IMG/VR virus record: IMGVR_UViG_3300040801_000904
Span: 1-38,307 of that record
From: a virus
DNA: 38,307 nt
Reading direction: 5' to 3' (one strand)
Part shown: positions 17,330-38,224 of the stretch, in pieces
How positions within the stretch are numbered: the first letter of the stretch is position 1
Layout of the letters: each line of letters starts with the position of its first letter
Position numbers and translations under genes: made by a program
The notes under the pieces: model-generated
Database searches by the model: none
Seen by the model: only the letters and a program-made list of their open reading frames with translations
Told to the model about the DNA's origin: nothing

Positions 17330-17358
17330 TTGACATTTTATTAATCATCTATTATAAT
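17330..17358 (+). promoter_or_regulatory. Perfect-consensus sigma-70 promoter TTGACA-17-TATAAT
   Basis: TTGACA at 17330-17335 and TATAAT at 17353-17358, spacer exactly 17 nt. Every consensus base is present, so this should be one of the strongest promoters in the genome. Transcription would start near 17365 and enter a gene-free structured region of about 800 nt. Confidence 0.9.
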
Positions 17359-17364
17359 AGTAAG

Positions 17365-18165
17365 TAAGAAAAAGATTCCAGTAGCATAACTCGAAATGTA
17401 TTGGGTATATACTTAGTATTTGTTTCTGATCATTTACTTGAAAAACTGCTCCGATTGACTACCGTAAGTAGTCATAAATTAATACCACTGTAGTGGTATT
17501 TATACAGCGAATTAGTTTAAAACAGTGTAAAATACCATTACAATGGGATTTATAAAAGAGGGGGTGTGACAGGGTTCGACAGCTTGAAGGCCATTAGGCA
17601 AAAAGCTGGACGTGAGTTCGATTCTCACCACCTCCACCAAAATTAGGTTGTCATGGCTGAATAACTCGTAGTGTTCATGGCCACGAGTAAGGCACATAGT
17701 CAGACATAGTAGTCAGGCACGAGAAAGAACGCTTAGTTAATTCTGAGCATCGAAGTGTCACAGCAGATTCACTATCTGCGGCTATGGTTCCCGAAGCATG
17801 CATATAACTAGGCAGAACTAGGGATAATAAGAGGACTTGCTGATCACAAGCCTCCCGACAACTTAAGTGCTCTATTGGGGATTCCTGGTGGGGCAATCGA
17901 TAGCTAGAGTCGATTAATAAAATGCGCTGGCATGTCCTGGGTATGACAATTTAAAATACTTAGACGTTTCCGGCCCGTCTTAAAATAATGCCGGATCCAT
18001 TATTACAGTCTAGGCTGCTGACTAAAAATGCAGCCTCCAATAATAAAAACAAATAATTGGAGTGGGGCTATCGGCAATCCGTTGGTTGTGGCTGAGCCGG
18101 GAACGTAACGCCTGAGGGCTTGCGGAGTTGCTAGAGGGTTAGGGCAACATTACTATAAATTAATG
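17365..18165 (+). ncRNA. Large structured ('ornate') noncoding RNA, GOLLD/ROOL-like
   Basis: No credible gene lies in this stretch, but it is packed with helices. Examples are 17456-17474, 17481-17500 (8 bp, TGTA loop), 17531-17550 (one mismatch), 17664-17688, 17731-17748, 17763-17779, 17831-17854 (4+4 bp with a bulge), 17895-17915, 17962-17980, 18012-18036 and 18036-18061. TCCGGC (17969-17974) can also pair with GCCGGA (17990-17995), competing with the 17962-17980 hairpin. A tmRNA-like domain is embedded at 17560-17639. Size, density of structure, phage location and an internal tRNA-like element fit the GOLLD and ROOL classes of giant phage RNAs; membership is inference. The 3' end is uncertain: no terminator before 18470. 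Confidence 0.7.
17560..17639 (+). ncRNA. tmRNA-like tRNA domain lacking the mRNA-like domain
   Basis: The 80-nt element has a 7-bp acceptor stem, GGGGGTG (17560-17566) with CACCTCC (17629-17635), including a G3-U70 wobble, then A and CCA (17637-17639). It has no D stem; TTCGAC at 17575-17580 stands at the same distance from the 5' end (21 nt) as in E. coli ssrA. GGACG precedes a 5-bp T arm with TTCGATT loop (17612-17628), and this 3' part of 32 nt matches the ssrA layout. The 27 nt between (17581-17607) form a capped stem, AGCTT/AAGCT with inner GCC-ATTA-GGC. There is no tag reading frame and no pseudoknot. A canonical tRNA cloverleaf does not fit. Confidence 0.75.
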
Positions 18166-18173
18166 AGGTGCGT

Positions 18174-18449
18174 ATGTCTTTCTATTCTTATCCGAATCGG
18201 CTGGTATGTAGTGTTCTTGAAGAAATGAGGAATATGTTAAAAATCTTGGACCACAACAATATTGACAAGTATAAATCAAGTCAAGCGATGCTTATAGAAG
18301 AAACGCAAACACTAGTAAATAGAATGGAGGCAGGTCTTGAAGACCAGAGGGACCTCCGAATGGCTCATGAAGAGATCAAAAAGTTAAAGAAAGAGATTAA
18401 AGAGCTAGAGGATAAAAGAGATAGTTTAAAAGTTGATGTAAAAGAATAG
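18174..18449 (+). CDS. Coiled-coil protein downstream of the large RNA, 91 aa
   Basis: ATG 18174 with GAGG five bases upstream is preferred to GTG 18168. The C-terminal half (about 50-91) is a Lys/Glu/Leu coiled coil. It is the only gene in the transcription unit of the large RNA, whose promoter is at 17330 and terminator at 18470, so it may be co-expressed with it and could be a partner protein. No family recognised. Confidence 0.65.
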   Translation: MSFYSYPNRLVCSVLEEMRNMLKILDHNNIDKYKSSQAMLIEETQTLVNRMEAGLEDQRDLRMAHEEIKKLKKEIKELEDKRDSLKVDVKE

Positions 18450-18469
18450 TACAAATCATATTAATAATA

Positions 18470-18493
18470 AAGGGCTTAATTGCCCTTTTTTTT
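18470..18493 (+). terminator. Rho-independent terminator
   Basis: AAGGGC (18470-18475), loop TTAATT, GCCCTT (18482-18487), followed by T to 18493. It closes the unit made of the large RNA and the 91-aa gene. Confidence 0.92.
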
Positions 18494-18504: not shown

Positions 18505-18533
18505 TTGACAATATAACTTATATAATATATACT
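18505..18533 (+). promoter_or_regulatory. Promoter TTGACA-17-TATACT for the replication operon
   Basis: TTGACA at 18505-18510 and TATACT at 18528-18533, spacer 17 nt. A TATAAT at 18521 is too close to the -35 to pair with it. It stands just after the terminator and just before the long run 18567-30877, which has no other visible promoter. Confidence 0.8.
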
Positions 18534-19879: not shown

Positions 19880-20260
19880 ATGATTAAATTCAGAATTTGG
19901 GAAAAAGGGTGTAACAGCTTAGATGATGTTAGCTATTATACAATACCTATTGATGATCCAGCGTGTGTTAAGAAGACGATAACGTTCTATCCTGGAGACA
20001 GAATAGATCAATACACAGGGCTAAAAGACAAGAATGACATAGAAATATATGAAGGGGATATAGTAAAAGGATCTATGGGGCGTAAATATGTAATTAAATT
20101 TGGTAAATATTGTGGTTTAGATTTTTATGATAGAGATAATTACGGTTATTACCAAGAAAATACTACAGACAAGCTGAATGTGAATCCCTTAGTAGATGAA
20201 GACGACTTAGAAGTAATAGGGAACATTTACGAAAATTCCGAGTTATTAAATGCTGATTGA
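19880..20260 (+). CDS. YopX-family protein, copy 1
   Basis: A 126-aa member of the YopX family, with the hallmarks IDQYTGLKDKNDIEIYEGDIVKG in the middle and LEVIGNIYENSELL at the end. The family is widespread in phages of Firmicutes and Proteobacteria; its function is unknown. A paralogue follows at 20312. It starts with ATG four bases after the preceding stop. Confidence 0.88.
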   Translation: MIKFRIWEKGCNSLDDVSYYTIPIDDPACVKKTITFYPGDRIDQYTGLKDKNDIEIYEGDIVKGSMGRKYVIKFGKYCGLDFYDRDNYGYYQENTTDKLNVNPLVDEDDLEVIGNIYENSELLNAD

Positions 20261-20311: not shown

Positions 20312-20692
20312 ATGAAAGAGATTAAATTTAAATTTTGGGATACTTCTTTGTGTCAGTTTTTATCTCCAGAGAGCTTTTCTGTAGATTTTAAGGGTCAAGT
20401 TTGGAGTAAAACACTAATAAAACCCTACAGTGATATTAAACCTATTCAATACACAGGACTAAAAGACAAGAACGGTGTTGAGATATACGAGGGGGATATA
20501 GTCAAGGGTAAACAATTCGATGATTATTTTAGGTTTCCAACACCAAAACCATTTGTGGCACAGGTGCATTTATATTTTGATACAAATATATCCAGTTATT
20601 CCACAGGCGGGCCAGATGGGTCTACTGAATTTAGAGAATTAGAAGTAATTGGCAACATTTATGAAAACCCCGAGTTATTAAATGCTAATTGA
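20312..20692 (+). CDS. YopX-family protein, copy 2
   Basis: 126 aa, same length as copy 1, with IQYTGLKDKNGVEIYEGDIVKG and LEVIGNIYENPELLN. The N-terminal third and middle have diverged strongly while both family motifs are kept, so the pair is likely functional and not a recent duplication. The 3' end overlaps the primase gene by 11 bp. Confidence 0.88.
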   Translation: MKEIKFKFWDTSLCQFLSPESFSVDFKGQVWSKTLIKPYSDIKPIQYTGLKDKNGVEIYEGDIVKGKQFDDYFRFPTPKPFVAQVHLYFDTNISSYSTGGPDGSTEFRELEVIGNIYENPELLNAN

Positions 20693-37284: not shown

Positions 37285-37484
37285 GATACTATCACCTTCC
37301 CATTTTCGTCTGTTGGGAAAACACAATCCCTTCCTAGTTCGTTGTTTCTCAATATTGTGCCGTTTGCCATCACCCATAGAATAGTTTTTCCGTTGACGTT
37401 AAGTGCGACATCCCCTTCAACATCAGGGTCGCTTAAAGATACTGTCACATATTTATCTTGTATAGTTTTCAGATTGAGTTTCAT
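37281..37484 (-). CDS. Hypothetical protein, 67 aa (leftward operon, gene 2)
   Basis: Overlaps the sigma-factor gene stop by 4 bp. Beta-rich and acidic-neutral (MKLNLKTIQDKYVTVSLSD). Coupling to the sigma gene suggests a regulatory partner, such as an anti-sigma, but there is no sequence support. Confidence 0.65.
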   Translation of the reverse strand: MKLNLKTIQDKYVTVSLSDPDVEGDVALNVNGKTILWVMANGTILRNNELGRDCVFPTDENGKVIVS

Positions 37485-38224
37485 TTTTTAAACCTCCGCA
37501 TTGGTACATCACCATCTTTAATTTTTGTATCGTACATATACCTGATTCGATTCACTGCTTCACGATACAGTTGTGAACTAGCTTTTTTATTAAAATTTAT
37601 CTCTGCGTCAGCAGGATAGCCTTGAATACGTTCTTTTATTGCTTTTTTGTGTGATGGGCTGAGTGTGTTTTCGGCAAGTTGATCAATCTCTGACAGAGCA
37701 ATAATTTTGTCGAGGGGGTCAACTGTAGCTGCCCCCGCATCCATCAATGAATTATCGTTCACGTCTTTGTAGTTATTGTTTATTGAGCGACCTTGATGCA
37801 CAACAAGGGCGTCGGACTCTAGTAAATTATTTTCTTCCAAGAATTTTTTATACTCAGAACTATCATTGTAGTCGTTGAAAATTTCCATCAACTTAAAAAA
37901 ATACTTATAAGCAGGACTTGCCTCACTTATTGTGTAATTTAAGCTGTGTCGTCGGACGTATTTTGACACACGGCGGCCAATTGCGCAAGAAAGATAAGAA
38001 GAAAACCTAATATTTTTATCACAATCAAAACTTTTTAAAGCGTAAAGCAAAGCGATATACGCTTCTTGAACAAGATCCTCATAAAATGCATGAGTCTTGT
38101 AGTGGGAAACACATTTAAAAACCAATTTTTTAAAAAACAGTACAACTTCGTTCTCAATAGCAGGAGAATTATTTTGCTGGTATTTCTGTATCATTTCTTT
38201 TTCTTTCTCAATTGTGTATTTCAT
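37481..38224 (-). CDS. RNA polymerase sigma factor, sigma-70 family
   Basis: 247 aa. Region 2 spans about 25-95: EDLVQEAYIALLYALKSFD and IRFSSYLSCAIGRRVSKYVRR are close to sigma-70 region 2.1-2.4 ('DLvQEG...fD...rFsTYa...I'). A long Asn/Asp-rich linker (about 100-180) leads to a helical C-terminal part (LSPSHKKAIKERIQGYP, then EAVNRIRYMYD) in the place of region 4. It would redirect host RNA polymerase to phage promoters, plausibly the TTGCAT-17-TATACT class. First gene of the leftward operon. Confidence 0.85.
   Translation of the reverse strand: MKYTIEKEKEMIQKYQQNNSPAIENEVVLFFKKLVFKCVSHYKTHAFYEDLVQEAYIALLYALKSFDCDKNIRFSSYLSCAIGRRVSKYVRRHSLNYTISEASPAYKYFFKLMEIFNDYNDSSEYKKFLEENNLLESDALVVHQGRSINNNYKDVNDNSLMDAGAATVDPLDKIIALSEIDQLAENTLSPSHKKAIKERIQGYPADAEINFNKKASSQLYREAVNRIRYMYDTKIKDGDVPMRRFKK

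Follow-up and report, generated by a model that had tools for sequence, protein, structure and literature searches.

Trans-translation is a main bacterial ribosome-rescue pathway, and versions of its RNA, the tmRNA, that hold little besides the tRNA-like domain (TLD) have been described. In Mycobacterium phage DS6A, the tmRNA is reported to be little more than this domain ('TLD only'; PMC4131195, with Mao 2009 cited there; PMC11915505), and it is the one phage RNA of its kind that we found on record. According to PMC4131195, again citing Mao 2009, a similar molecule strongly inhibits tmRNA whether or not it can be charged, perhaps by titrating SmpB; PMC11915505 repeats the inhibition of tmRNA by a TLD-like molecule, and the precedent, as relayed by these later papers, comes from heterologous expression in E. 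coli. The CDS-less tmRNAs of Mallomonadaceae plastids (~65 bp) and the tag-less mitochondrial tmRNAs, both organellar, likewise consist of the TLD only by their description (PMC11915505). Permuted two-piece tmRNAs (RF04321) are common in aquatic phages (PMC9004378). A further structured RNA relevant to this locus, the manA RNA (RF01745), is a candidate 5' UTR element, and the paper reporting it makes no mention of tmRNA (Weinberg 2010, PMC2864571).

The window analysed here, a whole virus record of 38,307 bases, contains an 80-nt element that shares with the DS6A molecule, going by the published description of the latter, its phage origin, a mostly tRNA-like body and the lack of a tag frame. 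It differs from DS6A in its setting: the record has no recognisable integrase, and the element, here called a mini-tmRNA, has a consensus promoter upstream and a structured manA-like RNA downstream. A preliminary description of this DNA had stated that no such RNA was known from phage, which is wrong in view of the DS6A TLD-only tmRNA. New here are the breadth of the class, which was the unexpected result, the evidence from covariation, a division into two structural subclasses and the setting in the window.

A tmRNA without its mRNA-like domain

The mini-tmRNA occupies positions 17560-17639 of the plus strand and is built from a 21-nt 5' end (GGGGGTGTGACAGGGTTCGAC), a 27-nt insert (AGCTTGAAGGCCATTAGGCAAAAAGCT) and a 32-nt 3' end (GGACG ... 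CCACCA). It opens with the 5' strand of the acceptor stem, GGGGGTG (17560-17566), whose third G belongs to the alanine identity pair G3-U70. There follow the D-loop analogue TGACAGGG with its GG and the TTCGAC motif (together 17567-17580), the insert, which forms the P2 hairpin (17581-17607), then GGAC with the T arm GTGAG TTCGATT CTCAC (17608-17628) and finally the 3' acceptor strand CACCTCC, with U70 at 17633, A73 and an encoded CCA (17629-17639). Within the insert, AGCTT (17581-17585) pairs with AAGCT (17603-17607), and GCC (17590-17592) pairs with GGC (17597-17599) in an inner hairpin. The predicted fold comprises a 7-bp acceptor, a 6-bp P2, the inner 3-bp hairpin and a 5-bp T stem, at -29.3 kcal/mol (z -2.5 vs shuffles). 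Sequence, model match and fold thus bear out the coordinates, segment lengths and G3-U70 pair first given for the element.

When the whole window was scanned with cmscan, the element matched the Rfam tmRNA family RF00023 at 68.6 bits (cut-off 47, E 7.9e-25), and no other Rfam family exceeded its cut-off. The alignment runs from the first to the last model position (1-374), with 312 internal positions replaced by 17 nt. Acceptor, D-loop analogue, TTCGAC, the start of P2, GGAC, T arm and CCA are all shared with canonical tmRNA, whereas the pseudoknots, the tag frame and most of P2 are absent. Of the checks proposed in the preliminary description, the tmRNA model was positive and ARAGORN returned zero tRNA or tmRNA calls in the entire window, which agrees with the claim that the element is no cloverleaf tRNA.

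Only 27 nt separate TTCGAC from GGAC, and the 312 missing model positions take with them the pseudoknots, resume codon and tag frame of a functional tagging tmRNA. No tag-like reading frame was found on the plus strand between 17330 and 18170. Since neither the element nor the surrounding non-coding stretch provides a resume codon or tag frame, the mini-tmRNA is unable to add a tag to a growing polypeptide. The features that alanyl-tRNA synthetase, EF-Tu and SmpB require of the tRNA-like domain of tmRNA are in place, and those needed for tagging are missing. We therefore regard it as very likely a phage-encoded, TLD-only tmRNA, in line with the original view of a tRNA-like domain that has lost its mRNA-like part.

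Mini-tmRNAs are strongly associated with viruses

Relatives were collected with two sequence patterns. Pattern 1 fixed TTCGAC, a gap of 12-42 nt, GGACG and the T arm and left the acceptor stem free; it returned 50 viral loci, among which those with a perfect 7-bp acceptor represent 29 distinct sequences, the window included. G3-U70, a pair not imposed by the pattern, is present in 29/29 of these. Seven distinct pattern 1 sequences fail acceptor pairing and were rejected (L003, L007/L030, L016, L019, L026, L046 and L050). Pattern 2, anchored on GGGG and CTCCA, yielded 93 viral stretches, together with 5 matches in 84,980 bacterial and archaeal genomes. Combined, the patterns recover 97 viral loci with 64 distinct sequences of one design. 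Two of the five genome matches look like true minis, one on a Mycobacterium MAG contig (L116) and one on a Bacillota MAG contig (L118), with Rfam scores of 66.1 and 64.1 bits. Two Microvirga matches precede the coding piece of a permuted host tmRNA, and a Planctomycetota match resembles the 3' end of another tmRNA; inspection of the flanks showed L114, L115 and L117 not to be minis. With 97 viral loci against two true cases in these genomes, the element is strongly virus-associated.

Three sequences (L060, L066 and L106) were kept as uncertain, each being mini-like in sequence and either a mini or a real longer tmRNA; on L060 and L106, ARAGORN calls a longer tmRNA that encloses the mini-like sequence and has an implausible 30-aa tag. 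Blastn matches of the mini in phages were for the most part tRNAs, tmRNAs of permuted or full form and, in temperate phages, T-arm/CCA ends, as sorted by Rfam and by eye.

The surroundings of the relatives vary. In some, an intrinsic terminator lies within tens of bases 3' of the mini (L013, L031, L032, L041 and L042), and in others the mini sits inside a tRNA array (L009, L039, L041, L047 and L049, as well as the Streptomyces phages described below), both as expected for an independent RNA gene. In a minority, the mini fills the gap from a stop codon to the ribosome-binding site of the gene that follows. No SmpB gene was found in 36 records, in a search whose positive controls were recovered, and the mini-bearing records hold no tmRNA above cut-off besides the mini; since most contigs are fragments, these absences are weak evidence for any single record.

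P2 is maintained by compensatory change

The set used for covariation comprised 68 distinct sequences in 49 clusters. The acceptor and T stem are paired throughout, both being partly selection criteria, and the universality of TTCGAC and GGAC is not independent evidence because both were imposed by the search patterns. The GG of the D-loop analogue is present in 47/49 clusters. P2 played no part in selection. Over its first five pairs, 91% of positions in the 49 clusters are paired, vs 43% when the 3' arms are shuffled among sequences. Among 16 sequences with 28-nt inserts, aligned with the D-loop linker omitted so that no gaps arise, each of the five P2 pairs (5/5) has changed on both sides and 96% of cells pair; the covariation score of the whole structure is 0.72, vs 0.17 after shuffling and no more than 0.23 when the partner is slid. 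P2 is thus kept by compensatory change, and the co-variation that had been proposed as a check on the element is present in its relatives.

Two structural subclasses can be distinguished. Class A minis, which include the window copy, have inserts of ~25-36 nt in which a 4-8-bp P2 leads through a purine-rich internal loop to a short CC..GG hairpin. Class B minis carry inserts of 12-16 nt folding into a single hairpin (e.g. TTGAC-CTCG-GTCAA), for a total of about 62-66 nt, similar in size to the Mallomonadaceae plastid CDS-less tmRNAs (PMC11915505). The 27-nt insert of the window is not arbitrary: its P2, purine-rich internal loop and short CC..GG hairpin recur across phages.

Copies in isolated Streptomyces phages

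Copies are also present in cultured phages. Streptomyces phages pSt2308, LuckySocke, GiJojo and BRock carry minis scoring 57-65 bits, Alone3 has a weaker copy (36.8 bits), and in Riptide a divergent mini was spotted by eye, with TTAGAT replacing TTCGAC and GAAT replacing GGAC. All six lie after tRNA-Val(tac), within a tRNA-rich region. Along these phages the acceptor changes from GGGGCTG through GGGTCTG to GGGTTTG, each time compensated, with G3-U70 kept. None of these minis is annotated; in GiJojo, a hypothetical gene overlaps it. This gene 44 (L126 999-1241) runs across the mini-tmRNA and is probably a misannotation. Mini-tmRNAs are easily missed: ARAGORN is silent on the window copy, and among the Streptomyces copies annotation is lacking or a gene is drawn across the element.

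Setting of the mini-tmRNA in the window

Genes for head, tail and endolysin precede the mini-tmRNA in the record, and genes for primase, helicase and polymerase follow it. Upstream, a sigma-70 promoter-like site on the plus strand (TTGACA-17-TATAAT, 17330-17358) matches the consensus at 12/12 positions, from which a transcript would start near 17365. Two similar hairpins, AATACCACTGTAGTGGTATT and AATACCATTACAATGGGATT, lie between this site and the mini-tmRNA (17478-17550).

Directly 3' of the mini-tmRNA, starting at its CCA end, a stretch of 229 nt (17637-17865, plus strand) aligns end to end with manA RNA, with CUGAAUAA and GUAAGG matched, yet scores only 27.3 bits against a gathering cut-off of 55.2 (E 8.1e-5); we accordingly refer to it as manA-like. 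Its closing stem TTGTC/GACAA is visible in the fold. The non-coding stretch 3' of the mini-tmRNA as a whole (17640-18160, plus strand) is more stable than all shuffled versions (0/100 as stable, z -3.0) and probably shares a transcript with the mini-tmRNA. A 93-aa open reading frame to which no family was assigned (18168-18449, plus strand) would stand at the end of this transcript, followed by an intrinsic terminator-like hairpin with a T run (18469-18488, plus strand). A second promoter-like site, matching at 11/12 positions, is found at 18505-18533.

A GOLLD identity for the surrounding large RNA was considered and dropped, there being no Rfam match. A search for manA beside a tmRNA end elsewhere gave one pattern match, which is not a mini-tmRNA. 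The filtered manA search of 38 records produced no match; it also produced none in control genomes and missed the window's own weak match. By blastn, nothing in phages matched the window region, and a search for close relatives of the window phage through its endolysin and DNA polymerase found none. Elsewhere in the record are a ClpP-like protease frame (PF00574, 21397-22068), two neighbouring YopX-family frames (PF09643, 126 aa each, 19880-20260 and 20312-20692) and a minus-strand frame for a sigma-70 region 2 protein (37481-38224).

A candidate decoy against host trans-translation

The preliminary description had offered two roles for the element, a decoy that blocks host trans-translation and a processing handle within a larger RNA. 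The first is the best-supported mechanism, and it has the experimental precedent in the literature described above. As we picture it, the transcript would be trimmed at both ends by host tRNA-processing enzymes. Comparison with the relatives shows that the RNA adopts the acceptor and T-arm fold of tmRNA, together with a P2 hairpin that is short and closed. It could then be charged with alanine through G3-U70 and bind SmpB and EF-Tu. By occupying SmpB, EF-Tu and stalled ribosomes it would lower host trans-translation during infection, as the inhibition reported for a similar RNA suggests. The gain for the phage, for instance that its own proteins are spared tagging, is speculation. We assign a probability of roughly 0.6 to the mini-tmRNA being such a competitive decoy against host tmRNA. 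Because the reported inhibition is independent of charging, simple titration does not explain the strict G3-U70 pair, which hints at an alanine-dependent role.

This pair keeps alive a different proposal, in which the alanylated TLD and SmpB would enter stalled ribosomes and accept the nascent chain, another factor freeing the peptidyl-TLD, so that the mini would assist rescue while phage proteins escape being marked for proteolysis. A similar suggestion exists for tag-less mitochondrial tmRNAs, which persist together with SmpB (PMC11915505), and the strict G3-U70 fits a charging-dependent role. In one 108-kb phage record (L047), a 120-aa protein with a GGQ release-factor domain (PF00472) is encoded 703-340 nt upstream of the mini. 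However, such a gene occurs in 1/32 records, and in this tRNA-rich region a chance association is plausible; moreover, what the later papers report for a similar RNA is inhibition. We consider non-tagging rescue rather unlikely. The processing handle, in which the fold would merely give RNase P and 3' tRNA enzymes defined ends for the surrounding large RNA, appears less probable still. It draws on the window, where the mini is directly followed by the structured manA-like stretch, and on the minority of relatives whose mini directly separates a stop codon from the ribosome-binding site of the following gene. Against it, a shared structured RNA 3' of the relatives' minis is unsupported (median fold z -0.7), other relatives are stand-alone copies next to terminators or within tRNA arrays, and the tmRNA- and alanine-specific features that are kept are unneeded for processing.

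Two further readings concern the origin and the identity of the element. tmRNA genes often serve as sites of integration (PMC11915505), and the mini could be the 3' end of a host ssrA gene carried as attP by an ssrA-integrating phage; L042 has its mini ~0.3 kb from a tyrosine integrase gene, and the T-arm/CCA ends matched by blastn lie in temperate phages. Although the 3' part alone would do for an attP, the 5' half and P2 are maintained as well, with compensatory changes. Integrases are rare, with a tyrosine integrase in 4/33 records and, in the window record, no match to PF00589 (tyrosine integrase) or PF00239 (serine recombinase) in searches with positive controls. For the window, such a relic is thus disfavoured and very improbable. 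A degenerate or unusual ordinary tRNA, or one half of a split or permuted tmRNA, is hardly credible. The permuted model does give a weak match (16.5 bits, E 0.62), and permuted tmRNAs and minis are both phage-encoded tRNA-like domains; in the mini, however, the halves stand in normal order, joined by a short hairpin, and there is no coding piece. An ordinary tRNA is opposed by the lack of an ARAGORN call, of a D stem and of an anticodon arm. As to a split tmRNA, the 38,307-base record holds a single tmRNA match with no second, the neighbouring plus strand is free of a tag-like frame, and with both acceptor and P2 closed within 80 nt no arm is free for a partner piece; a second piece completing an ordinary tmRNA, which the preliminary description had named as grounds for refutation, was not found.

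Returning to the decoy, dozens of independent versions in other phages suggest that interference with host ribosome rescue is common among phages and has been overlooked. A bolder and more doubtful extension, which we offer tentatively, is that TLD-only tmRNAs form a widespread class of phage RNA effectors in many unrelated phages, that P2 and its loop have a binding partner of their own, that these RNAs shut down or replace host trans-translation, and that the window copy is cut free of a larger, structured RNA with a regulatory role. Their presence in dozens of unrelated phages, together with the covariation, makes manipulation of rescue by phage decoy RNAs testable in culturable hosts, e.g. 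Streptomyces.

Other structured RNAs in the records

Several further RNAs came to light. Pistol ribozymes lie ~2 kb from the mini in L035 (10682-10769, 62.2 bits) and L021 (5916-6012, 50.7 bits). A permuted-model match overlapping the 3' end of the L035 mini was rejected, as it is a terminator-like hairpin starting GGGGGTG. Permuted tmRNAs of family RF04321 (86-111 bits) were found in phages (L053, L055, L057, L058 and L054, including S-CAM3). They carry no annotation in Alcaligenes phage QDWS595, Xanthomonas phage Rb1, phage Tunturi_5 and Achromobacter phage JWDelta, and the one in Synechococcus phage S-CAM3 is covered by an annotated hypothetical gene.
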